A DNA stretch of 64,000 bases from Zasmidium citrigriseum (lineage: Eukaryota; Ascomycota; Dothideomycetes; Mycosphaerellales; Mycosphaerellaceae), in assembly GCA_002786025.1 (NCBI GenBank), contig NHNW01000064.1:62001-126000 (forward strand), written 5' to 3'. The notes under the pieces are model-generated. The model was not told the DNA's origin. It saw nothing but the letters and a program-made list of their open reading frames with translations, and ran no database searches. Position numbers and translations under genes: made by a program. Positions 30,789 through 54,285 of the stretch are shown here, piece after piece; the stretch's first letter is position 1, and the number at the start of each line of letters is the position of its first letter.

Positions 30789-31340
30789 GATGGCTTTGGT
30801 CTGGAGAGATCCGGCTCGGGTTGCAATTGGAAGGAATGGAAGGTGAAGTCAAGAGAGAAAGAAAGAGGCGTCCTCTTTGCGATTCCAGTTCCTCGCGAAA
30901 ACGCTCTGCCGGACAGATGCAGCTTCCCTTGATGCACATCTCCACGAAATCGGTGGCGAAATGATCTGTCACTTTCCAGTTCCGTTGGTTCCGAGGTGCG
31001 GTGTAACGAGGCTATGCCACGACGAGGTTACACAACAGTTTGCAGCATCCGCAACAACGTCTGTGAGCGACTTTGCGTCGTTGGAACTTTGTGGAATGAC
31101 TGGAGCTCAGGCTGGTAACAAGGACAACCAGAGAGCGTCCGCAAGACTGCACGCATTGTGGAAGATGAATTTCGGAACAAGAGGGATACTTCAAATGGTC
31201 ACAAATGCTGACGCTCGCGGGAGTGGCATCCGTTTGAGAAGGCTTCCTCACTCCTCGTTTCTCTATCATAAATCGAAAAGCATCCGCACATGTCTATTTC
31301 CATCTCTCCCAGAAGCCTCCACTTACGCCCAGTCAGCTAT
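30789..31340. other. Intergenic between F-box gene and receptor gene
   Basis: Promoter region of the F-box-like gene and terminator region of the NACHT receptor gene, both on the minus strand. The frame 30877-31500 (+) overlaps the receptor 3' end and is taken as a shadow. Confidence 0.5.
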
Positions 31341-35790: not shown

Positions 35791-36381
35791 ATCGAAACGA
35801 AATGTAAACAGTGGATAGTGCCTGATATCCCGACCTGGTGGGCGGGAGGAAAGGAGATATATCCATGGCGGGCGTCTGCTTTTCTCCCGACGATGTGGTG
35901 TTGTTTGTAGATCTGATGCCTGTATGTGACCTTTTTGTCTTTGTCTTTGCATTGATGCAAAGGTCAGACTGCATAAGAGTCTCGCTGTATTGTAGCGCTT
36001 TGATGCAGTCAATGGCCTGTCTCGTTTCCTGTAAAACTAGTAGAATGCCGCAAGATTGTCGTAGTAGCTCCATAATGTTGGATGATACCACAAAGCAAAC
36101 CGAAAGGGGAAGATAAATGGCCTGATAGTCAATCAGCATACAGAGAAGAGCGTGTTTCCTGCTCAGTGTATACGTACCTACAACCATGAAAGTATAGGCA
36201 AGACCTACCGGCTGTGAGGTGGAGGTGGGATGAGCCCCGCGAGTGAATGAATCCCCGGCAACACATCGGCACGGCCATGGCCCGTGCGTTGCCATCTCCC
36301 TTCCGCCACCTTCTCCTCGTCCTCGATCATTCTCCACTTCTGCACCACTGACGACCGTATACCAACATAGCAGTCAACAGC
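35791..36381. promoter_or_regulatory. Shared divergent promoter of receptor and F-box-like paralog B
   Basis: The receptor starts at 35790 on the minus strand and the F-box-like gene at 36382 on the plus strand, leaving 591 bp for both promoters. Co-regulation is possible. I see no clear TATA element on either side. In-frame ATGs upstream of 35790 exist but add residues without family similarity. Confidence 0.45.
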
Positions 36382-37911
36382 ATGGCCACAGCACCATCCA
36401 CGGAGAACAGATCTCGTTATCCCGACGAGATCCTCGAAAACATCTTCACCAACCTCCGGCTCCCATCCGCCTCGACGATCGGATGTGAGCGATACGAACC
36501 AGGCGCTCCCGCCAACCACCACGCAGAGCTCAAGAGAAGCCTGCGCACTCTCGCCGCGGTCTCAAGGGCCAGCAAGCAGTTCAACCGGGTCATGAAGCCG
36601 ATCATGTTCGCCATATTCCCAGGGCAAAGCGCGGCGAATCCTCTCCTCTTCATCCGCAGCATTCGGAAGGACCGTGGCCTCGGCGCACTTGTGAAGGAGA
36701 TGGTGGTGGATGCTTGGAGGATCCCGCCGCAGAAGCGTTATGGATGGGTTCAGCTGGTCAATCTCACCACGCCGACCCAGCTCCTCGAGTTCATTCTGAA
36801 GGAGCCGTCCTGGAATGATGCTGTCCCGACGCTTCTGCTCCTACTCTGTACCAAGATCGAGACCCTGGCCTTCTCGGTGCCTGTGGGATACAGGGCGAAC
36901 CAAGGGATGTGTGGTCTGTTCGATCAGCTCTTTCGCCTGGTCCCAGATCCGTCGTCGAATGAAGAAGGAGAGCCCGAAGCCAAATCCCGCCTCCCACTGA
37001 AGAAGTTGAAGACATTGCAGCTTCATCATCTGGACAAGGACTCATTTCGAACTCTGAACGGACTCGAGCCTCTCCTCCACGTCAAGTCTCTAGAGTCGCC
37101 AACAGTCTACCGCTTCTCTCGCCACGTCGATAAGAGCATCCAAATGTGGCAGCTTCACCATCTTCAGTACCTCAATCTGTCCAGATGCACATTCAATGCG
37201 GAAGGCTTGCCATCTGTCCTGCGAGCTTGCACTGGGCTCCGATCCCTCAGCGTCACCTTTGCTGGATACGTCTTCTGCGCCGGCCAGTATTGCCATCTCA
37301 ACCAGCCGGTCAGTCTGTGGACTATCGGCGATATCATCCAGCGGCAGATGCCACATCTTCGACAGCTGCGCCTTGATGACCGCGAAGCCACACCAGTCGG
37401 GGGGAAGATGTTCCCGTCGTTCAAACAAGGTCCGGCTCTGGAGGAACTGGCGATCAACGAGGCGTGCTTCGGGGGGTACGAAGGCTCCAACCTGCAGAGT
37501 CTGCCTCTCGTCGAGATGCTCCCATCCTCCTTACGCCACCTCGCCATCCTTCGCTCAAACCAGTGGTGGGACGCAGCAGTCCATGAGCCCGACATCAACG
37601 ACTACGTCGATCAGAATACGGGTGTGGCTTATCGCATGAGCAACATCCACGACAAGGTCTTCGAGTTGCTGAGAGACTGTGCGGAGCAGCTGCCAGAGCT
37701 CAAGACCATTTCCATCGACACACCGCTTGAATTCGGAAAGGCTGTCGGGGAGTTAGGATGGGAGCGTGAGCGTGTTGTTGGAGACCCGATGTTGGCACAG
37801 CCGAAGGTTTGGACGGAGCCGAGCCTGGAGAAGGTCAAGGTTGAGTGGGCGGAGTGGTCGAGAAAGAATATGTCGACTGTGTTGCTGAGGCGGGTTGAAC
37901 CAGAATGGTAA
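36382..37911 (+). CDS. F-box-like protein with leucine-rich C-terminal region (paralog B)
   Basis: A single exon encodes 509 aa. RYPDEILENIFTNLRLPSAS (residues 12-31) parallels LPNEILENIFSRFKLPGA of the gene at 29004-30788. Other shared landmarks are PGQSAANPLLFIRSI, LQYLNLSRCTFNAEGL, LEELAINEACFGGYEG, LRHLAILRSNQWWDAA and LKTISIDTPLEFGKAVGELG, ending VLLRRV. It is 85 residues shorter, mainly through smaller loops near the N-terminus and middle. Likely role: substrate adaptor of an SCF ubiquitin ligase, inferred from the F-box-like N-terminus. It shares a divergent promoter with the NACHT receptor. Confidence 0.75.
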   Translation: MATAPSTENRSRYPDEILENIFTNLRLPSASTIGCERYEPGAPANHHAELKRSLRTLAAVSRASKQFNRVMKPIMFAIFPGQSAANPLLFIRSIRKDRGLGALVKEMVVDAWRIPPQKRYGWVQLVNLTTPTQLLEFILKEPSWNDAVPTLLLLLCTKIETLAFSVPVGYRANQGMCGLFDQLFRLVPDPSSNEEGEPEAKSRLPLKKLKTLQLHHLDKDSFRTLNGLEPLLHVKSLESPTVYRFSRHVDKSIQMWQLHHLQYLNLSRCTFNAEGLPSVLRACTGLRSLSVTFAGYVFCAGQYCHLNQPVSLWTIGDIIQRQMPHLRQLRLDDREATPVGGKMFPSFKQGPALEELAINEACFGGYEGSNLQSLPLVEMLPSSLRHLAILRSNQWWDAAVHEPDINDYVDQNTGVAYRMSNIHDKVFELLRDCAEQLPELKTISIDTPLEFGKAVGELGWERERVVGDPMLAQPKVWTEPSLEKVKVEWAEWSRKNMSTVLLRRVEPEW

Positions 37912-38506: not shown

Positions 38507-39107
38507 ATGTCCGCCACAACAGGTAAGCAACACATCTCACCAGAAGCTCGTTCGATCCTCCGGCTCCATCCCCTGCAGCCAGCCGCAGCCATTGTGCCAC
38601 GACGACTAATCAACCCGCAACCTCACCTCATCAACATGCTGAGTGATCAATCAATTCGCTCACTAATGATCTTATCCAGCCCTCGGCCTCAACCTCCCCA
38701 TAACAGCCACCTTCGCCGCCCCGCTCAGCGCGTATTACCTCTTCCTGCAATCCCGCGTCGTCTACCACCGCCTCAACACGCAAACCTCCCTCGGCGACAC
38801 GCAATCCACGCTCCCCTCCCACGACGCTCTCCTCGCCTCCGTGCGCGCACAGACAAACTTCGCCGAGAACGTCCCGCTCGCGCTCCTCCTCGCGGCTGTC
38901 GTGGAGCACAATGGCGGGAGCAAGAAAGCTCTGACGTATGCGCTCAGTGCGTTGTGTGTGTTTAGGGTTGCGCATGCGGAGTTTGGGGTTATGATGGAGA
39001 AGTATATGGGGAGGGGACGGCCGGTGGGGTATTTTGGGACGCAGGCGGTTGTGGCTTATTTGGCGGGTTTGGCGGGGTGGTTGACGAAGGGGTATTGGGG
39101 GTTCTAA
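38507..39107 (+). CDS. MAPEG family membrane protein (glutathione/eicosanoid metabolism type)
   Basis: Two exons (38507-38522, 38680-39107) give 147 aa; exon one is only 16 nt (MSATT plus one base). Four hydrophobic segments are spaced as in MAPEG proteins. The core RAQTNFAENVPLALLLAAVVEHNGG with a downstream FRVAHAEFG matches the R-x-x-x-N-x-x-E-x-x-P signature that binds glutathione in microsomal glutathione S-transferases. Fungal members of this branch are often annotated only as MAPEG; detoxification of lipid peroxides or xenobiotics in the ER is inferred. The length is normal for the family. Confidence 0.85.
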
Positions 39108-40687
39108 GAGTTGAGGTTGATAGGATGGAGGTGGATGGGTGAGAAGAGAGAGGAGTGGAACTAGTCCATGAAGCATTTGTACAGAAGAGATAGATTGAGG
39201 ATGTCAAGAGCATCAGCCCAGTAAGGAGCATAACAGCGCTCGCGAGTGTACAGTGTAATCAAAGTCGTTCTCTTACAATGGTTAAGACAACTTTTCATGA
39301 GCGAAGGACAGTCACATTCAACGGTCTCTTCGTTGAAGAGGGCAAGCCTAAGGTCAAGGCGAAAGCAGACGTGGCACGGTATAGCTAATCGCAAAGGAGA
39401 TTGACATCAAAAAGCTAAGTGCATTCAAGCAACGATATCTCATCCACTTACTAACGAAAGAGCCAACGAGCAGGTCAAAACCTCAATCTCCATCACCCTC
39501 ACAAAAGCCAAAACTGAATTTCACCTCACCCGCGCAAAAAGGGAACCTCCGCGGGAATCGAACCCTCGCCTCGCCATACCGCCGCCGTCGCCGCTGCCGC
39601 TGAACAGAGAGAAAGAGAAATTTGATAGTCACCTTTGAGATAGACCACGTCACCTGATGTGGAAGTGAAAGCGAGCTGAGCGCTCTGATTGAATGATGGA
39701 GGTGATGGTTTTGGGCTCACTTATGAAGGTTAAGAAGGTGAGGGCGGACATGTGAAGATTGTGAAGGGACGGGGTGCAGACGAGGGATGGAAGGGGTGAT
39801 GGCAAGGGTTGGATGGATGGATGCTGCTGTCAATGGAGTGGATGCTGGGGATGGATATGGTTTTGTTGTATTGGTGAGAGGTTTCTCATCGATCTAGATG
39901 GTCTTCAAGTGAGGTCTTCTATTAACTCCACCAGGTGGAAGGCCAAACTTCGTGAGAGTCACGGAGCGGAACAGCTACGAACGCAGCTTCGACTTGCCAC
40001 GCACCTCCTCGATGAGCAGCACCCAAGACCTTAACAACAACGACTTGATGCACGACGCGATTGGACATGAACATAGCAGCATACCTCAATAACGACTTGA
40101 AGCAAGAGAGGGATATAATCTGCATGAGATGAACGAGGAGGCTTGATTGACGTATAGCAGGCACAAAGCGCCGGATAAAGAGATGGCTTCGATACTTCAT
40201 CCTCGACCTCGCCACATCCGAGGTCTTCCTCTCCGCCGGCATACGCGTCAGCCCTCCAATTCAACCATGGCCGCTTGATTCCGTATCTTCCGATTTGAGT
40301 GTAACACCGATGAACGCCCAAAAGCAGCGCAAACCATCACCGTCAGCCTCCTCAGGTGACTTCCCCGGAGCTTCATGAACGCCTTTCGTTTCGGTCGCAG
40401 TTGATCAGCAGCACCAGCCCGTGGACCTCTGCACTCGGCACCAACATACCGTGGCTTCGCACTCCTCTCCGGTTGTGCATGTGGCGACGAAAATGGTGAA
40501 GAAGGTTATGAACACACTTGATTCAAAGGAGAACTCCCGGCAGCTCAAGAAGCACCGCAACGCCGCCCATGGATTCCACCCGAAAGAAATCCCAACACCG
40601 AATCATCAATGTCCCGCACTACCGACATGAAACACACGGCTATACTGCAGTGTCGCCCTTGCCTTCAGGTTCCCCCACCGAGAGGGC
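39108..40687. other. Intergenic between MAPEG gene and the small-gene array
   Basis: It contains a tRNA-like element (39536-39655). A Cys-rich frame at 39161-39394 (-) has no ATG and no fitting splice partner. Other short frames show no domain. Confidence 0.5.
39536..39655 (-). tRNA. Degenerate tRNA-like element
   Basis: The minus strand has a perfect B box (GGTTCGATTCC, 39564-39554) followed by a pol III type T5 run at 39540-39536. About 60 nt upstream the block GTGACTATCAAA occurs, nearly identical to GTAACTATCAAA in the element at 61.4 kb. Both are followed by a T/C-rich run and a GC-rich segment. I could not fold a proper acceptor stem or find a good A box, so it is more likely a pseudogene or tRNA-derived SINE than an active tRNA. 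If the shared block is an anticodon loop, the anticodon would read CAA (Leu). Confidence 0.35.
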
Positions 40688-40891
40688 TCATGGTTTTTTT
40701 GCGTTGGGATTCTTCTTCCAACAACGCGGACAATCGAAGTCCCTCTGAATACCATCGCCATCAGACTTGACACTGCTCAAACAGGCCTGCGAACGGAACC
40801 AGTTTCTGCCATACTCTCGAGCCCTCCAACAGGGCCTTCGCTCCCATTGGAAGTGGCCGCAGGTCCATTGGGTCTTAACTTCTGTGCACAT
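40688..40891 (-). CDS. Small Cys/His-rich Met-Cys protein, array member 1
   Basis: 67 aa from the first ATG of the frame. Metal-ligand-like residues: C2, C11, H13, C21, then C37 and the pair C54-P-R-C57. The start MCTEVKTQWTCGH shows the array signature C-x8-C-x-H. No signal peptide or membrane segment; a basic C-terminus (KKNPNAKKP). Upstream in-frame codons lack ATG, so the Met-Cys start is well supported. It is the most downstream, leftmost member of the array. I do not recognise the family; zinc binding is inferred. Confidence 0.6.
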   Translation of the reverse strand: MCTEVKTQWTCGHFQWERRPCWRAREYGRNWFRSQACLSSVKSDGDGIQRDFDCPRCWKKNPNAKKP

Positions 40892-41507
40892 GATGGGGGA
40901 TTTAGGGAAGTGCTGGTTTCGCGTCAAGGTAGAGGGAATCTGGCGAACGTTTCGGAAAATAGCTGCGCGGGAAGTGGGAGGAGCTTTGGCTGGTGGAAGA
41001 CTGCCTGGATGTGAAGGACAATCCTTGAAAATAAGACGGTGGAAGAGGCGTGGGTGGAAAGAGGTTTCAAGAAGTGCAAGGAGGCTTATAAGGACCGCTG
41101 GAGACGGTCATGCGGTACTTGGCAATCCATGTGCAACTCATGGGTTTCCACTCGAGCGCTGGCTCGCGAAGCGTATCAAACGTTTGTTCGAACACCCGGA
41201 GGCTGTGGCGATGCACACGACCTGGTCAGCTCTGGCAAGCAGCTTTAGACACAATCATGTTCTGTGGCGACGAAACGGGGGATAATGTGAAACAGGAGGT
41301 TGAATGATGATGCAGACTCATGAACATTAGCATACAGATTCGACACAACATCGAGGAGGCAAGCGTCTAGCGAGACCCCAATCCGTTACGAACGCTCCAC
41401 CCCGCTACACTGTCCTCCGAGCTAAATGAACATGCAAACACGCACCGCTAGCATCGATCGGCCATTCTCTCTTCCACATGACCTTCGCCGGCGCATCGGA
41501 TCCACAT

Positions 41508-41738
41508 TCAACTCCCCAGCTCCTCCGACGGATGCTGTCCTCGTATCTCAGGGGCACGACGTCTGCACTCCTGGCAGTCGTCGGGCAACTTTTCGGGCTC
41601 CTCATCCTCCACCATTCCATCACAGCGTTGCCGGTTGAAAAACGGCCATTTGCTGTGAGCTTCGTATGGCGCACAACGGCGTATGTTGTAACATTTGTAA
41701 TGGCCGCACTTCCACAAAATCTTCTTGAGCGTGCACAT
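41508..41738 (-). CDS. Small Cys/His-rich Met-Cys protein, array member 2
   Basis: 76 aa. C2, C11, H13, C22 in the array spacing, with extra C16 and C39, then C55-x2-C58 (CQEC). A basic core (MCTLKKILWKCGHYKC) is followed by an acidic stretch (EDEEPEKLPDD). The frame is open for 52 codons further upstream but without ATG, so this is the first possible start. About 0.6 kb separates it from member 1. Short-form member: CCHC block plus one CxxC. Confidence 0.6.
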   Translation of the reverse strand: MCTLKKILWKCGHYKCYNIRRCAPYEAHSKWPFFNRQRCDGMVEDEEPEKLPDDCQECRRRAPEIRGQHPSEELGS

Positions 41739-42285
41739 GGTGGGAGCTTTGGAGAGAGCTGGAACTGATGGACTCGGGTGCGTGTGCGAAGAGTCGGTAC
41801 GGGAGAAAACCAGAGGAGCTGGTACTGATGGCTGGCTATTCAGAGAAGGTGTTGCCCTTGGGCCGGAGGGTTTGAAAAGGGAGAGCCAGGGCAACTTGAC
41901 GGAGATGAGAACTCGGGCACATGGAGACGTTTACATGTGCCCGACGGCACGCATTTGTGTTTGCGAAGGTCTGCTGAGGACTGTTTGGTCGCCGCCCGCA
42001 CGCCGACCTTCCAAACTGATCGAGCAATGGCCCGAACACGTGTGCGACTTCGAGTTCTCCACGATTGACCTTCTAGATAGTAGCGAACAGCAGTACACGG
42101 TATTGGTCAAACTCCATTGACAATCCCCACAGCGCTCACTTAGTATCTTGACGCTAGCCTCCAATTACATGAGACGAAACACGAAAACACGAGAAGACCA
42201 GCTTGACCAACATGGAAAACCCATCCATCGCAGTCGTTGACCCCAGCCTCCAAATCGAAACCCGCCCACACAACCATCGTGGGCG

Positions 42286-42486
42286 TTACCGTCGATCGTG
42301 CGCACGGCATTTAGGACACTTTCGAAACCAGCTGCGGCTCGGCGAAGTGTCAGGCTCAATGTGGTGCCGAACGGTGAAGTAGTAGAAGCCGCTCTGCTCT
42401 TGCTTCTTCGTATATTCCCGGCAGCGGGCGATTTTCCGATTCGTCAAATGACCGCACCGCCATTTGATGTCCTTGTTTCGGCACAT
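42286..42486 (-). CDS. Small Cys/His-rich Met-Cys protein, array member 3
   Basis: 66 aa. C2, C11, H13 and C22 (MCRNKDIKWRCGH), then an aromatic stretch (GFYYFTVRHH) and C57-P-K-C60 near the C-terminus. Strongly basic. The upstream open frame has no ATG. With member 1 it shares R-x-C at the end of the CCHC block and CPxC near the C-terminus, so members 1-3 look like a close subgroup. Confidence 0.6.
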   Translation of the reverse strand: MCRNKDIKWRCGHLTNRKIARCREYTKKQEQSGFYYFTVRHHIEPDTSPSRSWFRKCPKCRAHDRR

Positions 42487-43059
42487 GATAAGCTCACTGG
42501 GAAGACTGGCACCGGTCGAAGGGGAGTATCTGTGTAGATTGAAGGTTGATCCAGGTGGGTTAGGATGTTGGATTGGAGGATGCGTGGAGATTTGGGTGTT
42601 GAGCGAGGCTTGATGCAGGAGAGCTGCAAAGCAGATAGAGGTCTTGGGAACAGAGCACGCGGCTGTTGACAATCCGTCAGCAACTTTTTGGCCACTCTCC
42701 CACCCGGTGACTCGAAAAGCATAGTCGGCGTTTGCTTTCAAGCGCAGGCAGGGCGGCGGTGGCGACTCACAGGGCACGACTAGATTCACAAATGGCGGGT
42801 GGCATCAAGCTCATGCTTAGGCGGCATTGCATGAGCAAGAGGAAGTGGAGCAAGATCAAGCCTCGTTAACATTAACATATATCTCAGCCGTACAACAGTC
42901 CGACCGAGCCCTAGAAACGACATTCAACACAATCCGGAACATGAGCACCTCCCTCATGCAAGGCGCCCAAAATCAAAACCATCGATCGTGTGCTAACAAA
43001 GACTCCAGCCTGCAAAAGAGTTACGCTATGTATAAATCATATCTCAACGTCTTCGTCTG

Positions 43060-43389
43060 TCAATCTTCTTTGGCCATCGAAGCATCCTCGCTGGTCGTCA
43101 CCTTGAAGCCATGCCGACAGGCCATGCATTCCTTGTCCTTAACGAAGTGCGGCTTGCACCCTAGATTTCTTCGCGGGTGGGACCACATCATGTGTTTGCA
43201 GGTGAAGAAGAAGGTATCGGAGGGCTCTTCGCACCTTATGCCCGTCGGGCAGTCTGGGCAAGGCTCCGGCTCGATGGGGGCGTTTCTGAATGTGGGCTGA
43301 GCACACAGTGTGCCGTAAGTGTTGCATGGCTTCGTAGTGATTTCCAATGCGTGGCCACAGGGGAAGCGAAAGAGTATGACGATGCACAT
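43060..43389 (-). CDS. Small Cys/His-rich Met-Cys protein, array member 4 (long form)
   Basis: 109 aa. C2, C11, H13, C22, then C44-P-D-C47, C64-K-H66 and C88-M-A-C91. This long form adds a second CxH and a second CxxC to the short-form plan. The N-terminus is more hydrophobic (MCIVILFRFPCGH) but too short for a signal peptide. Nine Cys besides C2; His residues around 66-71. The distance C22 to the first CxxC (21 residues) is the same as in members 6 and 5 within one residue. Confidence 0.65.
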   Translation of the reverse strand: MCIVILFRFPCGHALEITTKPCNTYGTLCAQPTFRNAPIEPEPCPDCPTGIRCEEPSDTFFFTCKHMMWSHPRRNLGCKPHFVKDKECMACRHGFKVTTSEDASMAKED

Positions 43390-43719
43390 GTTCGTTGAGG
43401 AAAGGCGTCGACGTTTGCGGAATTCGCTATGTGCTATGTGATAGTGTCGATGTAGAAGAAGAGGACATCAGCTCAGCCTGAAGTACTTTCAAGCGTTTGC
43501 GATTAACAAATGCATTTGCCGCTCCGCACGGGTCCACGATGTCAAACACGCTGGAATACATGAAGAGCCTGTCAAACCGCCCTGCACATCAAGTTTGAGA
43601 AAACAGAAGCTAACAAAAATTGTCGCCCCAATTCCCACCTAAAGGAATACACACAAGTTCAAACACCAGGGCAAGATCAAACGTTTGCAACATCCACAAC
43701 CCCTCGCCGCACCTCAAGC

Positions 43720-44037
43720 CTACTTCCCTCCACCCGACGCCGTGTGGTCATCGCCATGCATTCCGCCGCACCGAAAACAGAACTCAGGATGAATTTGCTC
43801 GGCAACAGCGCCCAATTCGTAAGCACGACTAACCGTTGAAAGAACAACGAGGCGGCCATTTGGGCAGATGTGGTTCATGATATTCGACTTCCTTGAGCAA
43901 ACTAGACACTCGTCTGCTTCGCTCTTCTTAGAGCTGGGGTGTGTCCAAGTTGAACACCCGATGATGCCGCAAGGGTCGTAGACGATCCAAACGATGTGGG
44001 GGCAGCCGGGGTGGTCGTAGACTCTAGCCTTACACAT
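43720..44037 (-). CDS. Small Cys/His-rich Met-Cys protein, array member 5 (long form)
   Basis: 105 aa. C2, C12, H14, C23 (one residue longer than the usual spacing), C28, C44-L-V-C47, C58 and C87-F-R-C90, ending in a His/Gly tail. A TATA element (TATAAAT, minus strand, 44149-44143) lies 106 bp upstream. The start context ACTCGAAATGTG is shared exactly with member 7, which points to common descent of the promoter-proximal part too. Confidence 0.65.
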   Translation of the reverse strand: MCKARVYDHPGCPHIVWIVYDPCGIIGCSTWTHPSSKKSEADECLVCSRKSNIMNHICPNGRLVVLSTVSRAYELGAVAEQIHPEFCFRCGGMHGDDHTASGGGK

Positions 44038-44346
44038 TTCGAGTCGTCGAACAATGGGTTCTGGAGGATTGGAATGGGCGGAGTGTATGATCTGATCGCG
44101 GATTGAGTGAGGGTCGATGGAAATGAAGTAGGAAATCAGAACATTTATACATCGTAAAAAGAGCTGTCACTCGACCTCGTCATTCCTTAATCTTTTGAAT
44201 CATTGCTATTTACTCACATCGCCCGAAGAGTGTGACCATAGACAATGGCTTCTAGGTCACCCGCTTCCAACGAACCGAGCACACCAAAGGGGCAGATGGC
44301 AATTTCTAGTGTCGAGGATGACCGCAACGTGATCGCCATTGATCAA

Positions 44347-44673
44347 TCACGTAGTCCCAGCGCCCGCGCCATCACTCCCATCATCTGCCCGCACAGGGCA
44401 CAGCCAGCAGTTATGTGGCTCGATGATCGGCTCAGCACTGGCAGCATCATCGACCCCGCCGGTGCCGCTGGTGACATCGTGAAACTCGTGGCCGCACTTG
44501 AAAAGGCACACCTTGGCATCAGAACGATGAAAGCAGGCTGGGCATAGCCCGCCTCGATTCTCGTTTCTTCCCGACCTCTTGATCGTGCTGCAAGAGCCAC
44601 TGTTTCGGCACGTCTGGACTACCAAGGCCCATTCGTGGCGACATGCAAACCTGCAGTATATTCCGTAGCACAT
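44347..44673 (-). CDS. Small Cys/His-rich Met-Cys protein, array member 6 (long form)
   Basis: 108 aa. C2, C11, H13, C22 (MCYGIYCRFACRH), then C44-P-A-C47, C60-G-H62 and C89-W-L-C92. This is the clearest long-form example: CCHC, CxxC, CxH, CxxC. The CxH of the second half (FKCGHEF) resembles the CGH of the first block, hinting at an internal duplication. A TATA-like CATAAAAG lies about 140 bp upstream. The C-terminus is rich in Gly and Asp. Confidence 0.65.
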   Translation of the reverse strand: MCYGIYCRFACRHEWALVVQTCRNSGSCSTIKRSGRNENRGGLCPACFHRSDAKVCLFKCGHEFHDVTSGTGGVDDAASAEPIIEPHNCWLCPVRADDGSDGAGAGTT

Positions 44674-45321
44674 GTCTGAATGGATGTTGCGTAGTTGTTG
44701 AAGATCGGGTGAGGTGAGGTTGCTGGCTGCGAAGTTCGGTGTGGTTGATGAGGTCCAAGGACGACGTTGAGAATACGGGAAGAGAGATCAGAGTCTGGTC
44801 CAGGAGCTTTTATGTGAACTTGGGAAGGGTCTTTGATCAAAGACCATCATTGAGTAAAGTGCCGTGGATCATACGAGAATTTCTAGTGATATCTTTGGCG
44901 ATTCCAGTTCACTTTGACAGAAATGCATCGAACAGAAGTGCAAAGACATGGAATGCATAGTCTGTCTGGCAAGCAACAACGCGAGCGTAGCTCCTATGCG
45001 CTACTAGCTGCATCGTAGAGCCAAATTGTATCCCAAAATCACGCGGCGGCGATGTATCCCAGAAGCTGGAAGCCACACGAACATTCCACATCTATCACCC
45101 CTATGGAAAATCTCCAACCTCACGATTGAGTACATAGCATTACCCCCAAATCAAGACTTCAACTCAGACAATGCATGGCATCTCGCTCGGACGCTAGAAG
45201 CCCCTTGTACAACAACTTCATGAAAACAAAATCACTCGAAGATACGCACTCATCGTCGTCGAGCTCAAAAAGCCCCACAAACCCACTCCAGAGGGTGATC
45301 CTTCGCTCATGTCTGAGATCG

Positions 45322-45609
45322 TTACTGCTGCTGCTGCTTCTTCTCCTCACAGATTACGCAGTGAGCCTCGCTCAATTTGATGGTCGGCGTCTTGGTAGCG
45401 TTCTTCATGCGCATAGTGTGCAAGCAGGCATAGGTAACGATTTGAGCTGCTGGGCCCTCGCATGATGGGCATTTCTTCTCGAACGACCTTGACTGTGGCT
45501 GTCCTTTCCCGGCGCATACGTGTTGGCCATGAGGCTCGTCTGTGCAAATCCAGGAGAGCGTCCATTCGTGGTCGCAGACCGTGAAATTGTAAGGAGCGTC
45601 GATGCACAT
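45322..45609 (-). CDS. Small Cys/His-rich Met-Cys protein, array member 7 (long form)
   Basis: 95 aa. C2, C12, H14, C22, C32, then C47-P-S-C50, C62-L-H64 and C84-V-I-C87, ending in a short Gln run (KKQQQQ). A TATA element (TATAAAC, minus strand, 45733-45727) lies about 118 bp upstream. Its start context equals that of member 5. Same CCHC, CxxC, CxH, CxxC order as members 4 and 6. Confidence 0.65.
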   Translation of the reverse strand: MCIDAPYNFTVCDHEWTLSWICTDEPHGQHVCAGKGQPQSRSFEKKCPSCEGPAAQIVTYACLHTMRMKNATKTPTIKLSEAHCVICEEKKQQQQ

Positions 45610-46267
45610 TTCGAGTGACTGGGGTTGTTGAGAGCTGATTGAGAGTTCGTACAGTGATTCGGATATTGTTGAGCTCGGTGGAAGCCTTGAGTGTCGTTGA
45701 AAGCGGAGGAGTGCCTCAAGTTGACTGTTTATACATGACAGGGAGGAGGGTCACGGGCATGATCAACCTTGTTTGTCCATGTTCAATGCCAAAGCGATTT
45801 CCAAACGTGCCTATAGCACAGGGACATGCCTTGTGCAGGTACCAACAAGAGCGTGGGCACGGCAAACTGGCGATTTCAACAATCCATGGAAGTCATACTG
45901 TTGAAGCAAAGAACCAGTGGCTGCCACCAGTCGTGCGAAATGTATCGCTCGCCAGCAGCATACTTGCCAGACCAGCAGCGTCCGGAGAGCCCTCGCACTT
46001 TTCAATGCATCTAATGACGCTAGTGGATTCTTGTGGCCTGAATACCGCCTGTTCTCGGCAAATGTAGTCACTCTCCGTTACAAGTTGGTCATGGCAATGG
46101 AGAGGGAGCTGATATCATAACACAAATCGTAGTATCTAGCCAAAACGAGACGTTCTGAGGGTTAACAATCGCTTCAGCATCACGGCTGCAGCCTCAGCCA
46201 GCCTTGGCACGCCCAACAGCCTCACAAATAGAACATTGCAAGAACGACTTCACACCCATAGGATTTG

Positions 46268-46918
46268 TCAACGTCTAGGGGGACGTCTTGGACTGCCTTT
46301 GCTCCTCGATCGCCTGTCGGCATCCCTCGTATAGCTCCCGTACCTATACTTTCCCATTCCTGGCACTTTGAGATAATCTGACGACTCTGCCGGTTGAGCT
46401 TCGCGGAAGTATTCAGCCGCTAGGCTTGGGCGTTCGTTGGAAGGAGACTTGGTTGTTCTTGAGCTGGGATCCTCGTTCCTCTTTGGGGTCTTCGGTTCGT
46501 ACTCTGTCGACTGCTGATCTCGGGTCGAATGCGTACGGTCGTGGTCTTGCTTCGGTTGAAAGGAATCGCCTTCTTCTCCTCCTGCTGTCGGATTTTCGGT
46601 TCTGGCAGCAGGGATGTTCTCCATTGGCACCTCAGTCTTCACTTCTGCGCCAGTCTTGAGATTCTCCTCGTGGTATACCTTCCTGGTCATCTCCTTGACA
46701 CCTTGCGCTGTTGTCAACGTGAAACGCCCCTTTGTTCTCTCCCGCTCCGCCTGCTCTCGTTTGCGAGGATTTTCGATCTCCTTGATACAGTCGTCGCATT
46801 TCGAGTGCCGCTCTTCGATTTTGGAAAACCGCTGCCTCTCGCACAGCGTCGGGCATAGACGAGTAGTGCAGCTTTCCAGATGCCTGCAGTCCCAGCGTAG
46901 AAGGGCCAGCCAACACAT
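46268..46918 (-). CDS. Cys/His-rich Met-Cys protein with long charged tail, array member 8
   Basis: 216 aa. The N-terminal 44 residues carry the array plan (C2, C11, H13, C22, C41-D-D-C44; MCWLALLRWDCRH). The remaining 170 residues are a charged, low-complexity tail rich in Glu, Lys, Arg, Ser and Thr, probably disordered, ending RRPPRR. Upstream in-frame codons give no ATG. A TATA-like TTTATATG lies about 150 bp upstream. A fusion of the family module to a disordered tail could act as an adaptor; this is inference. Confidence 0.6.
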   Translation of the reverse strand: MCWLALLRWDCRHLESCTTRLCPTLCERQRFSKIEERHSKCDDCIKEIENPRKREQAERERTKGRFTLTTAQGVKEMTRKVYHEENLKTGAEVKTEVPMENIPAARTENPTAGGEEGDSFQPKQDHDRTHSTRDQQSTEYEPKTPKRNEDPSSRTTKSPSNERPSLAAEYFREAQPAESSDYLKVPGMGKYRYGSYTRDADRRSRSKGSPRRPPRR

Positions 46919-47277
46919 CCTGGGAGTATGAAATTGGTATGTTCGAGATCTTTGGAATGCCTGATTCACATTAGAGCGCTTCAGTACACATGCACGTCAT
47001 GCGATAGCGCGCTTTCGAATTTTGACACAAGCTCAATGGTCATCGAGATCAAGTTCTTGGGGAATCATATAAAGGAAAACATCGAAGTCACGTTCGCGGT
47101 TCAGTTTGTGCCTGACCAAGTGGCAGATTGTACCGTGCGATGATTCGGGTGACCCAAGTAAATGCGTAATGCATACAACAGAAGCAAATGCAGGTGCACT
47201 CCTGGAACTCCAAGAGATACCTTGCATTGCCAATCGATTGCAAACGATATCAAGAAGCGATAGTATTCTAAACATAA

Positions 47278-47712
47278 TCAATTGGTTGAAGCTCGCTTCG
47301 CCTCAGCCTCAGCCTTAGCCTCAGCCTTGCCTGTCCCAGACGCCTTCCTCTGGGGCTGCATTGGCTGGCATACAGCACATTTCCTCTTCTTCTTCATTAC
47401 TTCTCCAACGAAATACACATCCGTCCACTTCTCCACGTCGCTGCTCGGATGCAGAGTCTTCACTTCGAAGTGCATACACCCATCGTAGCGTGTGATTGTG
47501 CCTTGTCTTGGCATGTCTTCGCCCGCGAACTTTCCTTCGCATTCGTAGCAAAAGTCGCATGTCTCGTCATCCTCTGTGGGCTCGACTTGTGATCTGTGAT
47601 AGCGTTCTCTGTTCTCGGGCTCAATTTGAAACTGCTTTTCAGGGCAGAGTGCGATGATACGAAGCCGTAGAATTTTGCACTTGGTGCATCTGCAGAGGTT
47701 GCCAGAGCACAT
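47278..47712 (-). CDS. Cys/His-rich Met-Cys protein, array member 9 (divergent long form)
   Basis: 144 aa. C2, C7, C9, C12 and C23 replace the usual CCHC block (no His at position 13-14). Downstream are C52-D-F-C55, a C-M-H motif (YDGCMHFEV) and a final KCAVC, so the long-form order CxxC, CxH, CxxC is kept. The C-terminus is an Ala/Lys/Glu repeat (KAEAKAEAEAK) coded by a short GCCTCA-type repeat at about 47295-47330. The upstream in-frame codons include no ATG. Confidence 0.55.
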   Translation of the reverse strand: MCSGNLCRCTKCKILRLRIIALCPEKQFQIEPENRERYHRSQVEPTEDDETCDFCYECEGKFAGEDMPRQGTITRYDGCMHFEVKTLHPSSDVEKWTDVYFVGEVMKKKRKCAVCQPMQPQRKASGTGKAEAKAEAEAKRASTN

Positions 47713-48014
47713 GTCATACGCTATCGACTTTTGTGGATAGATATTGTGCAAGATGCCGCTGGCCTTGGTTGGAAAAGCTTCTGTACCAGACGTTGGACCA
47801 GTGGCCGATACTATGTTCGATAAAATCTTCAGAACTGTGCTGTCTAGAGGATCATGTCATGACTGCGGAGGGCTTGTTGATACCATGATTGTAGCAAATG
47901 GTATTGAAGCTACGAAACAAATTGCTGTGTCCACAGCCTCAGAGCAACTAACAAAAGCAAATCCGCCAGATCTTCAATAACGCTCACAAGTGATGAAATA
48001 CAAATCGGGTGACC

Positions 48015-48524
48015 TCAACATCCAGTCTCAAAGATGATGCCACCACTGACTCCTCCGGAGCCAGAGTCAGTATTGGCCTTCTCCCTCTCCGTTTCCTTCT
48101 TCGCCCGCTTCTCCCCAGCCGCCGATTTGTCGGCCGGCCCTTCTCCCACCTTTGAATCGCCTCCACATTTCGAACAGAGATTCACCCCCTCAGCCAGAAC
48201 CATGCTCAGGTGACAATTGGGCTGGCGGTTGTGATGATGAAAGATCGTGACCTCTTTGCAGTCGCAACTAGGACAGTGGTACATTCCTCCGAAACACATC
48301 TCCAAGTCGGCCGCCTTTGCCGTTTCGCAAAGAGCGCAATCACCCGTCAAGCGCTTTTCGTCGATGATCTCGAGAAGAGTATAGTCGTGATATGAAAAGA
48401 CGACGTCATGTGTAGACGAAGAACTGTCGTCGGCGCAGACCACGGCATGCTTGTGCTTGTCGGGTAAGATGAGAAGTCGGCCCTTCATGGGTGTGCGTCG
48501 AGGCTTAGAGTTCCGATCAGACAT
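48015..48524 (-). CDS. Cys/His-rich protein, array member 10 (extended N-terminus)
   Basis: 169 aa from the ATG at 48524. A TATA element (TATAAAT, minus strand, 48628-48622) 98 bp upstream supports this start over the internal Met-Cys at 48299. The N-terminal 60 residues are new to the family. Then come CALC, MCFGGMYHCPSCDC, a His cluster (FHHH) and CSKC, with a charged C-terminus. It lacks the exact C-x8-C-x-H and is the most divergent member, assigned by position, strand and ligand content. Confidence 0.5.
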   Translation of the reverse strand: MSDRNSKPRRTPMKGRLLILPDKHKHAVVCADDSSSSTHDVVFSYHDYTLLEIIDEKRLTGDCALCETAKAADLEMCFGGMYHCPSCDCKEVTIFHHHNRQPNCHLSMVLAEGVNLCSKCGGDSKVGEGPADKSAAGEKRAKKETEREKANTDSGSGGVSGGIIFETGC

Positions 48525-49164
48525 CGAGTATCGAGTTGGAGTTGAGAAGGATTTCAGGATCTGAAAGTGTTTTGCTGAGTGCGCCAGTAGAGAGGTGGCT
48601 TACGCCTTGTGCTGTCTCTGAATTTATATTGCTCTGGGAGTGGCAAAATTGGGTCACTGGGATCGTACAGCGGATGATCTTGGGTAAAAAGGAGCAAGCA
48701 GATGCGTTGAAGCAAGCGGCTACCAGAACAGCTAATCGCATTTCGACAGCACGGGTCTGTTTCATGCGCGGCAGAACAATCAAGTCAGACATCATGACCT
48801 TCTAGTACAATCGAATGCGATATTGCCCATCCATGTTCTGCCTTGATGCTCATAAGCCGTTTGGCATCTACGTGCTAATTTTTGAGTAAATACAGTTAGA
48901 TGAGGTCACTTTTATTTACTTAGTCCAACAACTTCTTGAAAAATCTTACGAGTTCAGTGGCAGTGCTACTAGATATGGTACATCTCAATGGAAAGGTTCA
49001 ATACACGTCTGATGTCAAATACTAGAGTACAAGTATGAAACGCTCATGAAGCTCGAGTCCAGAGACCAAGCTACACCAATTCGAGAGACATTCATCCAGC
49101 GACGTCTTGCACCACAACGAACCCTGTCACTTGCAATACTTCAAGCCTAGCTCATCGTTGAGGA

Positions 49165-49407
49165 TCACTGTCTCCTCGGCGACCAGTAACTATAATGGAC
49201 TTTCGGTTTCTTGGGTGTTGGCGGCTGCTTGCTCGTACGTTTCTTCGCATCGCGAGGGTGCGGCCTTCCGTTGGTGCACCAGAAGCAGTTCAAGATTGAA
49301 GGCGTGTCATCGATTTCCTCAATGTCAGTGCAACGAGTCCCGCACATGTCGATTATCCTCATGCTGGCGTGACCGCACAAATGACGTATTCGGACTCCGT
49401 CACACAT
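49165..49407 (-). CDS. Small Cys/His-rich Met-Cys protein, array member 11
   Basis: 80 aa. C2, C11, H13, C22 (MCDGVRIRHLCGH), C26, then C41-F-W-C44 and a basic tail rich in Lys, Pro and Arg (KKRTSKQPPTPKKPK). Short form. A TATA-like CATATATG lies about 165 bp upstream. The first CxxC sits at the same positions as in member 8. Confidence 0.6.
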   Translation of the reverse strand: MCDGVRIRHLCGHASMRIIDMCGTRCTDIEEIDDTPSILNCFWCTNGRPHPRDAKKRTSKQPPTPKKPKVHYSYWSPRRQ

Positions 49408-49805
49408 TTCTGAGAGTCCTGGAACTTGTAGGTTGGTAAGTTCGATGGTGAGAAGAAGTGGAAAGGTCTGACGCTCGTAAATTGGTCGGTTGTCTGCTGA
49501 GAGAGCCGGAGGTTGAGGAAGGTGTGCATCGACAAGCTGCTGGATAGAAGTCTAGCTTTGTATACGCTCTTCACATATATGTCATGTGAGAAGCCATGCG
49601 GTGGAAAGCTCGAAGCTTGGAGAGACAACAGGAACAATCTGTGGGAGCAGTCGTCGTAAGGGTGGCCGTGTGGGGAAAACATTTCAGCATAGCTTACGGC
49701 AAAACTACCACTTCATACATCGCAACCACATGGCAAAGTCAAACATGCGCCACCATCGACAAGAGCACCACTCTCATCAATCATGGTCATCTCTCTCGTA
49801 TCTCC

Positions 49806-49991
49806 CTACTTGCCAACCTTGCGGCCTCCGCCACCACGGACCCGCTGACAGTTTGGGCATTTCTCGCGGCTCGTTCGGATGCCGCCCGTGCTGCCGCCAC
49901 CGGCGCACATCTTGGTGGGCTGAGCGCAACGCTTAGTAGGAGTGTGTATCTCGTGGCCGCAGGCGTATCGGGTGTGGTAGCCGGAGCACAT
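49806..49991 (-). CDS. Small Cys/His-rich Met-Cys protein, array member 12
   Basis: 61 aa from the Met-Cys start. C2, C11, H13, C22 (MCSGYHTRYACGH), C29, then C45-P-N-C48 and a Gly/Arg/Lys tail. The frame also has an ATG at 50141, which would add a 50-residue Ser/Pro/Thr-rich leader, but a CATATATG element overlaps that codon, so the shorter form is preferred. Rightmost, most upstream member. Confidence 0.6.
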   Translation of the reverse strand: MCSGYHTRYACGHEIHTPTKRCAQPTKMCAGGGSTGGIRTSREKCPNCQRVRGGGGRKVGK

Positions 49992-50168
49992 GATGACAGC
50001 GGTCTGGGGATGTGTGTTCGGGGTGTTGTTATGAGAAGGGCTTTCGATGTTTGGTGGTTTGCGTGCGGGGGCTAAGGTCTTGATAGGAGCTTGTTCCCGC
50101 TGCGTTTGATGGGAAGAGGGGGAGGCAGAAGTTGGAGGCATATATGGACATTGTGATGCGCTGCTGGA

Positions 50169-50809
50169 TCATTCAATGGCATCTCGCAGATGCCCATTGA
50201 CTGCAATCAATAAGCTTCTCTCGATCGAGTCCATGGTGAAGAGGCTCAGAACCGTCGAATTGAATGGCTTCTGCTCGCATCGTGGCAGAATATCATATCC
50301 ATCCTGCTCTTCTTCAGTTGGGACGTGGTCTTTGATCTTCGTACGGGTTGGTGAAGACATTGACTGAAGCCTGGGAACTCCTTCACAAATTGATAGCCGC
50401 AACGTTTTCGTCAACGTTGAAGGCGGAAATACTTCATACTGCAAGTCAAAGTCCCAGAAGGAGCGTGTGAAGTTGGCAAGTGAAGTGAATGCCCGGGACC
50501 CAGTCCGGGCCAATCGGCAACTGACGGGCAAGCGTCGGCCAGGATTGCAGCGAAGGAGCGACGACGGGCAGGGGAGGAGGAAACGGATCGTCTGGTGTTC
50601 AACCTCACCTCTTCCTTCACATCTACAGCACCAGAATCCTCTGGCTGCACAGCGTTCTCGACAAATTCGAGATTCACGAGCGAGAAGATGTCGATACCAC
50701 GCCGATCCACGCGCCCGGAGTGACTCCCGAGGAAGAGCTCCAGCAAGACGAGCAGCGCCAGATGGCCCACGAGCAGCAACGACGAGAGCCTTCGAATATC
50801 GGTCAGCAC
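50169..50809 (-). CDS. Possible secreted or membrane-anchored protein, two exons
   Basis: Exons 50809-50609 and 50438-50169 give 156 aa; donor GTGAGG and acceptor TTGCAG keep frame. Residues 8-28 are strongly hydrophobic (LSSLLLVGHLALLVLLELFL), a signal peptide or anchor, followed by RVDRR, a Kex2-type site. The rest is acidic and polar, with only two Cys and no recognisable domain. The 170-nt intron is longer than others here, and open frames overlap on both strands, so the model is tentative. It lies just upstream of array member 12 on the same strand but lacks the array motif. Confidence 0.4.
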
Positions 50810-52525
50810 TGACTGGCGAATGTACTAGCGGGATTTTGGAGCTTTCAAGCTGATTATGAGCCTGCTCATCGCTCGTCGGAGGAGAGTAACGGCAGAGCGG
50901 AGACGCGTGCCCAGCAACACGACCATGGAAGGCATTGAGGCCCAAGAAAGAGCTACGGACGATTGGCAATCACCAAGATATCAGAGAGCAGATGCTCATG
51001 GGTGAGCGGCAGATGCGAGCATGCCTGCGAGCCCTGACCGACAGCCCTCTTCTTCATGGCCACCGCGGCTGTACGATTGACGCGCCCGGCAGTCCGACCA
51101 GAACAAGTCCTTTGGAGCTGCATCTCTAGCTTCTGAAAAATCATAGTCTGTCAAGACTTTACTTGTTTCGCCGCTCGGCCGTCTGACAGACCTCGTCCGC
51201 AAAGTCGCCCAGCCGAGGAGCCGATTTCTCGTCTTCTGCCCAAGGATAGAAGCGCCAACGACACGCATCGCTCGTCAGCACACCACGTCGATGGCCACCA
51301 ATGCACACCTCGGTCAGAATTTGCTTGCGTGCAGCACCTGATGGCCCTGCCAACGAGCCAGCCAGTGCTTCGTGAGACAGCGAACTTCGCGGCCGGCTGC
51401 AGTGCAGGCCTTGTCAGTGTCGTCATCAGCGATACGTTTCTTTTCGAATTCAACATCCCCACTGAGCGATTTCTGATGACCAGTGTTCACGAAGCTTTCG
51501 GCAACTGAGACTTCGAAGTCGACAACATGTCGATATGCACAAATCGATTGGAGCAGCACTCTACACCACTTTTCGGCCGGCATCTCAACTACATCAAATG
51601 TCTGGGTCATATTGTGGAGAAGCAGAAGCATCCGACGAGCCGAAGCCATAGACTTTGAACGGTTTGCTGACTTTGACTTTGCCCTGGGCGTCTCCTCGGC
51701 AGCGCCCGCTTATTCATTGCGCAATCATGCGGCTCTTGCTGGGACACTCTTCACATTCATGGCATTCAAGATAACGCAGCCACGGTACGCTCGATAACAA
51801 CAATCATGCCTCTCGCTGAACATACAGACTCGTGACATCAACGACCCCGGACTCCGATGTCCCACAGCTTTTACTCCGAACCTCGAACTCATGGCTAGGA
51901 CAGACATCGCCGGAGATGCTCGACGATCCGAGGCAATATTTCACAAACTGTTACACACAAAAAGTCCCTGGCCCCCACGATGGCGTATGATCTGGAGTAT
52001 ATTCTCTGGAGCCGCAACGCCCAGCAAAGCTTGACGAGCTTGGCCTCAACTTCACTTTGCCTCTGACCAAATAATCATCCCAGCCCTGGATCGATCGTGG
52101 TCAGAAAGCCTGTGGGCCTCCCCAACGGCTGGGAGAAAGTTGTGCTCGACTGCTGGACCTGATCACGTACCGCGCTTCAACATCAGCGGCTTTCTAGAGT
52201 CGGCATCCAGGAGTAAGACTCTCTGCGATGTCTCTGTCTGGCCAAAGTGCAGATCACCTCATCACGACGCGCGGTGTGTCGCTTCTCGGTTCCACGAAAA
52301 TGTGCAGCACTGCAAATGCCTCAAGAGGTCGCAGTGGGCGCGAGGTAAGTGAGACGCCAACTTTGATGCCCTTGACCGCGTCTGCTTTTGTTTTCGTCTC
52401 ATCAAATCCTGAGCATTATCTCTCTCATATGGCTATCTGGCCGCACCCTGAAGTCAGACAGAAATTCCCGCGGGCATACTCCATGACGATTGGCAGCAGA
52501 TAAGGCTATCGACACCAGCGACAGC
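50810..52525. other. Intergenic with one possible relic
   Basis: Apart from the frame pair at 51159-51649, I see only short overlapping frames. The right end must hold the promoter of the MFS gene. Confidence 0.5.
51159..51649 (-). pseudogene. Possible frameshifted gene relic
   Basis: A frame with a true ATG at 51649 runs 111 codons (MPAEKWCRVLLQSICAYRHV, then AGREVRCLTKHWLA) and stops at 51314. An overlapping frame, open from about 51353, continues to 51159 with similar composition (EVCIGGHRRGVLTSDACRW, RFYPWAEDEKSAP). No intron fits the overlap. A single-base indel in the overlap would explain the pair, either a real mutation or a sequence error. Family unknown; two chance frames cannot be excluded. 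Confidence 0.3.
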
Positions 52526-54285
52526 ATGAACGATCCTCAAATTCCTCTCAGACCAGTGGGCTCCTTCACCTCCGCGGAGACGACGGATTCGGCTATTTCC
52601 CCAAAGCACATCTCGCCTTCGTGGACACCACCACACAAGCCTCAGCGCGAGACTGTTGACGTCCCGGCCGATGTGCAACTCGCCCTCTGTCTCAAAGGCT
52701 TCGATGTCGACCGCCATGGCGTCGTGCGCTGGAGACACAACAGCGTCACGAGCGTGCACCCGCGACAATGGCCCGTCTGGCGCAAGTCGTACGACTCATT
52801 GGTCATCTGCTTCATGGAGTTCTTCATGACTATCATCAGCAATGCCGGCTCGTCCATTGTGCCATATGCCATGCATGATCTTGGCATCAGTGAGGAGGTT
52901 GCTTTACTCTGCTTTACGACTTCTTACCTCTTCGGCCAAGCTCTCGGCGGACTGCTACTCCCTCCCGTGGCCGAGTGCTTCGGTGGTCGGATGATCTACT
53001 TGACCTCGACGCTTGCTTACAGCGCATGCTGTGCCGTGCTTGCCGGATGCCCGAAGATTGCGGTGGTTGTTCTCATGAGGTTCATCACTGGCTTCTTGTC
53101 TGCTATGCCGGCTGTGGTCGCTTGTGGGAGTATTGAAAATATGTGGGTACGTATAAACAATCATGATCTATTCTTCCTCCATGTCCTGACTTTCATCAGG
53201 ACACCAAAGCTCGGATCTGGCTTGTGCATATCTGGATCTGCTCTGCTGTCGCCGGACTGGCATTCGCACCTACTTTTGCCACTGCTGTGAGCGAGTCTCA
53301 TCTCAAATGGTATATCTTACTTTCAACGATATATTTCCTTTCATGCTCACATGGTACAGGCCATGGGTCTTCTGGATCGCCGCCATCGCTACCTTGGTTA
53401 TCGCCATACTTTGCTGCTGGATGACCGAGTCTCGTCCATCTCAACTCCTGCAAAAGGAAGTCAAGGATGTGTCGCGTGCCAACAGCTTTGACGGTCTCTC
53501 GCTCGACGATGCCGACTCCAAGCCCAGCGTCAACACTTTCGTCCGAGTTCATCTGGTAAGCATCGATCACAGCACCTCTTCATAAAGGTGTCCCAATTAA
53601 CGATACGTCTCAGGCCCTCCCAATCCGCCTCTTTTGCACCGAACCCATTGTCTTCTTCACCTCTATCATGGGCGCAACCGTCTACGGCATCATCTACCTA
53701 TTCACGCCAGCCCTCCCCGTAATCTACTCCTCGCCACCTTGGAACTTCACCAATCTTCAAACCTCCCTAGTCTCCATCACCATCGGCGTTGGCATCCTAT
53801 TCACCTTCCTCCCGCGGATCTACGACATCCTCCTGCTCCGCCGGAAAGACGCCGCCGCTATCGAGCCGGAAGAGAAACTCTTTGGCTTCTTCGTCGCTGC
53901 GCCGTTACTGGCTGTGGGACTGTGGTGGTTCGCTCTCACTGTGCCTCCACTGTTCCCCATCGCCTCCCCATGGCCATCGATTGCAAGTTTAACGTTCTTT
54001 GGCTTCGCCGTCGTGGAGTTCGACAACGTGCTCTCCGGCTACCTCACCGACACATACACCGCACACGCTGCATCCGCCATCTCGCCTATGAGCTTCCTGA
54101 GGGCGGTGCTGAGTGGTGTGTTTCCGTTGTTCGGAAAGGGAATGTTCACGGGCTTGGGGAGCAATAAAGCGCTGTTTGTGCTTGCAGGTCTCGCGACGGG
54201 CTTCATGGGCGTCGCAATCTGGTTTTGGAGGTGTGGCAGGAGGTTGAGGGTGGGGAGTGGGCTTGCCGGCAGTATGGAGAAGTGA
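52526..54285 (+). CDS. MFS transporter, DHA1 (polyamine/drug:H+ antiporter) type
   Basis: Four exons (52526-53146, 53200-53309, 53360-53555, 53614-54285) give 532 aa. A hydrophilic 85-residue N-terminus carries GFDVDRHGVVRW and HPRQWPVWRKSYD, typical of fungal DHA1 proteins. Membrane segments follow (SSIVPYAMHDLGISEEVALL, TSYLFGQALGGLLLPPVAEC with the motif A region FGGRMIY). A long central loop rich in Ser/Asp precedes the second half. The C-terminal FGFAVVEFDNVLSGYLTDTY and AVLSGVFPLFGKGMFTGLG fit the same group. Substrate unknown; efflux of toxins or polyamines is likely. The codon before 52526 in frame is not an ATG start. Confidence 0.88.

Follow-up and report, generated by a model that had tools for sequence, protein, structure and literature searches.

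Is a run of very short open reading frames that have a few cysteines and a histidine in common a family of genes, and if so, what might its products do? The question is raised by a locus of the fungus Zasmidium citrigriseum (contig NHNW01000064.1 of assembly GCA_002786025.1, 44.4 Mb in 148 contigs), where twelve short open reading frames, every one on the minus strand, lie at 40688-49991 of the window, by which we mean the whole 64,000-nucleotide stretch analysed (bases 62001-126000 of the 219,026-base contig). The original prediction, made from the letters of the window alone, had placed twelve small genes on one strand here, and they were located exactly as it described. They encode 61 to 216 amino acids with predicted isoelectric points of 6.3 to 10.2, and adjacent frames are spaced 302-658 bases apart. 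Taken together our motif, profile and codon analyses support shared ancestry for most of these genes, and point to an orphan family of interest whose mechanism we infer below.

A shared motif found only in the array among the DNA scanned

In ten of the genes (numbered 1 to 12 by coordinate) the first module has Cys2, C11xH13 (x, any residue; 12/14 in genes 5 and 7) and Cys21-23, with an additional Cys at residue 26-39 in nine of the ten and a CxxC starting at residue 41-57 in all of them, which agrees with the predicted CxxC near residues 41-58. Genes 9 and 10 depart from this block, the former having no CxH in its first part and the latter starting with Met-Ser. It had also been claimed that ten genes begin with Met-Cys and share the Cys/His spacing; ten do share the spacing, but Met-Cys starts number eleven, gene 9 having one too. 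The order CxH then CxxC, present in 10/12 first modules, is the ligand pattern of a zinc ribbon, with a metal predicted, and the modules are otherwise diverse (15-35% identity to that of gene 12).

When the strict motif MC-x(6-11)-C-x-H-x(5-12)-C was scanned at every ATG opening at least 40 codons, the window gave 10 matches, all on the minus strand and all within 40688-49991. The remainder of the contig (155,026 bases, scanned in pieces of at most 10 kb) gave none, nor did 40,000 bases from contigs C1, C2, C24 and C35 or 12 more loci of about 3 kb each, and 20 Markov-1 simulated 64-kb sequences yielded 2 matches in total. Moreover, among first-ATG frames of at least 60 amino acids, a Met-Cys start is seen in 11 of 24 on the array minus strand (the genes included) versus 6 of the 238 in the rest of the window.

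Common descent and coding potential

Because the strict motif was picked after the finding had been seen, a profile test was added, in which leave-one-out profiles of nine first modules (cut by hand some residues past the CxxC) were run against 3,495 open frames from 259,026 bases. In 8/10 runs the left-out member ranked right behind the nine training members and above all other frames, with expectation values (E) of 1.6e-7 to 0.004 for the eight recovered members and of 0.013 for the best non-member across all runs. Genes 5 and 7, both with one more residue ahead of their CxH, were not recovered. Gene 9 was found in two of the ten runs (E 0.015 and 4.4), and gene 10 scored -5.1 bits against the family profile, a score reached by 425 of 500 shuffles, so that its membership is unsupported by profile and we treat it as a candidate only. 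These results support shared ancestry for most array members.

The genes also look coding. Synonymous codon preference was scored after training on five of the window's long frames: all twelve genes came out above zero, gene 8 barely, and of 74 further open frames in the array 16 did so (Mann-Whitney p 2.9e-6, with overlapping frames that are not independent). The codon scores thus fit the assertion that no other gene lies among the twelve, but the 16 other frames scoring above zero leave it unproven. Across the ten genes, every one of the six ligand columns keeps its amino acid fixed and uses both of the synonymous codons. In 11/12 genes no in-frame ATG precedes the proposed one, the exception being gene 12, with a further ATG 50 codons upstream, and position -3 is a purine in 11/12 and an A in 6/12, versus 43/206 among all ATGs of that array strand. 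TATA-like words occur 104-199 bases upstream in five cases (genes 1, 5, 6, 7 and 10), which is compatible with separate promoters.

The twelve genes, their second modules and their surroundings

The genes are as follows (E values are those of the leave-one-out runs).

40688..40891, minus: gene 1, 67 amino acids; single module C2-C11xH13-C21-C37-CPRC(54-57); E 3.2e-4
41508..41738, minus: gene 2, 76 amino acids; single module C2-C11xH13-C22-C39-CQEC(55-58); E 1.7e-6
42286..42486, minus: gene 3, 66 amino acids; single module C2-C11xH13-C22-CPKC(57-60), without the seventh Cys; E 2.2e-4
43060..43389, minus: gene 4, 109 amino acids; first module C2-C11xH13-C22-C29-CPDC(44-47), E 1.6e-7; second CxH(64-66)...CMAC(88-91) by pattern only
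43720..44037, minus: gene 5, 105 amino acids; first module C2-C12xH14-C23-C28-CLVC(44-47), not recovered when left out; C-terminal part with CFRC and without CxH
44347..44673, minus: gene 6, 108 amino acids; two modules, C2-C11xH13-C22-C28-CPAC(44-47) and C60xH62...CWLC(89-92); E 9.2e-6
45322..45609, minus: gene 7, 95 amino acids; first module C2-C12xH14-C22-C32-CPSC(47-50), not recovered when left out; probable second module C62xH64...CVIC(84-87), from pattern and moderate profile support
46268..46918, minus: gene 8, 216 amino acids; single module C2-C11xH13-C22-C26-CDDC(41-44), E 0.004; alone in having a long charged tail, rich in Lys/Arg/Glu, behind the module
47278..47712, minus: gene 9, 144 amino acids; Met-Cys start (47712), first part without CxH; C79xH81...CAVC(112-115)
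48015..48524, minus: gene 10, 169 amino acids; Cys/His-rich with three CxxC and a Met-Ser start; candidate member only
49165..49407, minus: gene 11, 80 amino acids; single module C2-C11xH13-C22-C26-CFWC(41-44) and basic tail; E 6.4e-5
49806..49991, minus: gene 12, 61 amino acids; single compact module C2-C11xH13-C22-C29-CPNC(45-48); E 5e-7

In their C-terminal parts, genes 4, 6, 7 and 9 have a second CxH...CxxC. Non-overlapping halves were compared with shuffles for this pattern, which arose in 2.0% of shuffles for gene 4, 0.6% for gene 6, 0.08% for gene 7 and 0.06% for gene 9, and the module profile was compared with 500 shuffles per part. By profile, the C-terminal part of gene 6 reaches 13.5 bits (0/500 shuffles) and that of gene 9 reaches 9.2 bits (1/500), the second part of gene 7 is equalled by 22/500, and neither gene 4 (134/500) nor the C-terminal part of gene 5 (98/500) stands above its shuffles. 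A second module is well supported in genes 6 and 9, moderately so in gene 7, by pattern only in gene 4 and not at all in genes 5 and 10. Seemingly decayed modules appear to retain the CxxC and to lose part of the CxH, the second half of gene 5 having CxN and the first half of gene 9 having no His.

The array is flanked on one side by a MAPEG-like frame (38841-39107, plus) and on the other, further away, by an MFS-like frame (52487-53287, plus). Within it, a 32-base imperfect palindrome (41913-41944, 87.5%) upstream of gene 2 is the only self-match of 40001-50500 against the window listed at E 1e-3, and two intron-like strings (43581-43654 and 42662-42770) both fall outside the open reading frames. 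Elsewhere the window holds an NLR-like gene with a HET domain, NB-ARC, TPR repeats and a ZZ zinc finger near its C-terminus (8395-11940, plus) and, about 7 kb off the array, an ankyrin-repeat frame in which one stretch matches GPIID_WHD below threshold (31344-33854, minus), possibly a further NLR-type gene. A gene with a HET domain also fits a filamentous ascomycete. A similar 'P(N/D)EILENIF' start is seen in two frames (29007-30848, minus, and 36352-37908, plus), which are probably diverged paralogues on opposite strands; a sub-threshold F-box-like match was seen in the first and none in the second. A bacterial-code scan found no transfer RNA.

Searches for relatives

When the products of 11 of the twelve genes (all except gene 5) were searched against the genome itself, the matches were the queries and five weak ones (L011, L015, L017, L018 and L044, with E from 0.011 to 3.7), these five each interrupted by a stop, and none of the genes was linked to its array neighbours. 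The strict motif is absent from L011, L015, L017 and L018, and in six-frame reading L011 and L015 look like chance. Pfam gave nothing above cut-off for genes 1-10 whole, or the ten first modules including those of genes 11 (to residue 60) and 12, in keeping with the original view that no named family is recognisable here, and among PDB sequences no match was better than E 0.18. Neither gene 4 by itself nor the twelve genes together (1692 candidates) gave a homologue in a protein database, in searches that need shared five-residue words and that distant relatives of 60-100 amino acids may escape. The neighbouring MFS gene, used as a control, matched 27 proteins at E <=1e-10 (the best from Zasmidium cellare, 59% identity), so the database includes fungi; NCBI classifies Z. 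cellare under Mycosphaerellales, Dothideomycetes. Titles and starts of abstracts among the literature matches listed contain no description of such a family. Hypothetical 'MC...CGH...C...CxxC' proteins presumably occur in several filamentous Ascomycota, a lead only; the two family searches, with their need for shared five-residue words, returned none.

Proposed working of the array proteins

The reading that we favour, and in which our confidence is about evenly balanced, is that the array represents an ancient family of zinc-held mini-domain proteins, expanded locally in a Mycosphaerellales-like fungus, that act as intracellular adaptors with diverse partners. Its starting points are observed, namely the pattern, its clustering, the ancestry of most members and the coding-like codons. 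What it would add is the zinc, the fold, the location in the cell, the diversification of the surface and the adaptor role. The proteins would be small, apparently single-exon and probably non-secreted, with one metal-site module each and in some cases two. Along the module, Cys at residue 2 would be followed by a CxH placed in a beta-hairpin turn, a Cys where that hairpin ends, usually another Cys, and the CxxC knuckle; CxH and CxxC together may hold one zinc in zinc-ribbon-like fashion, and Cys2, Cys22 and the extra Cys might make up another site or act as a redox pair. Once the metal core is fixed, the remaining surface could diverge almost freely, and the paralogues might each bind different proteins or nucleic acids within the cell.

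Metal binding we infer from the spacing of the ligands. Modules that keep six ligand positions fixed and otherwise share 15-35% identity with the gene 12 module suggest a metal-held core with relaxed surfaces, and such a combination would make the paralogues probable adaptors for different partners. Since they have no long hydrophobic stretch, the proteins probably work inside the cell.

Several results bear on this reading. Similarity does not follow array order (Mantel r -0.01 to 0.03, p 0.46-0.56): genes 1-3 are similar neighbours, but the distant pairs 4/8, 4/12 and 3/12 are equally similar. At the DNA level the coding stretches share a single 18-base match (E 0.02) and the upstream stretches of the array genes none. 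The predicted local expansion is thus supported by the clustering and not by any fall of similarity with distance, and given this lack of a distance effect and the near absence of DNA-level similarity, the genes either expanded long ago or evolve fast. Two structure models (mean predicted local distance difference test scores 56 and 62, the second for gene 12) are weak and disagree with each other. For the first, 33 entries were listed, all chains of zinc-ribbon proteins (USP fingers, the MCM N-terminal domain, ribosomal bL33 and aRF1), and in the second the CPxC stands at the start of a helix; structure prediction, named as a check in the original prediction, thereby gives a weak hint of a zinc-ribbon-like fold. 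Finally, no curated Pfam zinc-ribbon match was reached, the best being Zn_ribbon_TiaS for gene 1 only (E 0.019, 15.1 vs 27.3 bits). Other sub-threshold matches were LapB (E 0.43, gene 3 only), Zn_ribbon_11 (E 0.72, gene 4 only) and IS1595 (E 0.14, gene 10 only).

Alternative explanations

It is rather unlikely that the modules are instead partial RING- or treble-clef-type fingers of ubiquitin-like pathways, such as E2- or ubiquitin-binding adaptors. Their xCGHx...CPxC look is similar to the later half of RING fingers, the helix of the gene 12 model begins at the CPxC as it does in treble clefs, and gene 6 has sub-threshold Pfam RING matches (E 0.09 and 0.2), but these lie far under the curated cut-offs (12.8 vs 30.3 bits and 12.6 vs 27.4 bits). 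Moreover, a RING finger has eight ligands and starts with a CxxC before its CxH, and since 0/10 strict modules have a CxxC ahead of CxH, they lack the first ligand pair of a RING.

Unlikely, too, are redox or N-terminal-Cys sensors, in which removal of Met exposes the Cys as a metal ligand or degradation signal. Cys stands exactly at residue 2 in 11/12 genes despite widely varying tails and loops, and by an established rule methionine aminopeptidase takes off a Met ahead of Cys; Cys2 could, however, be merely the first ligand of an ordinary site. We give similarly little weight to a version in which the N-terminus becomes part of the metal site, where after Met removal the Cys2 thiol (perhaps with the amine) would pair with Cys22, fold, half-life and activity would be gated by zinc or redox state, and the family would be a lineage-expanded set of differently aimed adaptors.

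Quite unlikely are metallothionein-like metal buffers amplified for metal tolerance, although such tolerance is known to arise when small Cys-rich genes are amplified in tandem and the array proteins have 5-11 Cys each. In metallothioneins about one fifth or more of the residues are Cys, densely clustered, whereas here Cys makes up 3.2-10.2% of residues, few and fixed in position. With only 15-35% identity to the module of gene 12, the modules are not dose copies, and the diversity of the paralogues would argue against plain metal dosage and for different binding partners.

Secreted disulfide-bonded effectors we regard as very unlikely. Fungal effectors are commonly encoded by small and divergent genes rich in Cys (compare PMC4624222), and genes 4 and 5 have moderately hydrophobic starts (12-residue maxima 1.92 and 1.77). 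The 19-residue hydropathy of at most 1.32 nevertheless speaks against a signal peptide in most of the proteins, least clearly in genes 4 and 5, His is fixed as firmly as Cys, and with Cys at residue 2 and CxH at 11-14 there is no space for an ordinary cleaved signal peptide before the conserved part. Chance open frames are scarcely credible: short frames are frequent in the window, but motif scans, simulations, Met-Cys counts, codon scores and profile recovery all oppose this explanation, simulations and leave-one-out profiles doing so for at least eight members, and the earlier claim that chance cannot produce the spacing stands on the motif's occurring in the array only among the DNA scanned, on 2 matches in 20 simulations and on recovery of 8/10 members.

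Comparison with known systems

If our reading of the array as zinc-held adaptors is true, it adds a zinc-domain family without a Pfam name, packed into a single 9-kb array, whose paralogues have diverged so far that own-genome searches with 11/12 genes linked none to its neighbours. Genes of such small size are easily overlooked in annotation, and the array would be a natural set for asking how far proteins can diverge once a metal site fixes the fold.

Fungal effectors of the MAX type offer one comparison. Small fungal effectors of strongly differing sequence are said to share a structure and are described as secreted (PMC4624222), whereas the array proteins have no evident signal peptide and have a fixed His. 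With RING and treble-clef fingers the array modules share the order CxH then CPxC and, in the gene 12 model, the helix at the CPxC, but they have neither the first CxxC nor a CxxC right after the His. Zinc ribbons resemble them in that two short knuckles give four ligands; the array modules differ in having CxH where a zinc ribbon has its first CxxC, an extra Cys2/Cys22 pair, and a life as tiny stand-alone proteins.
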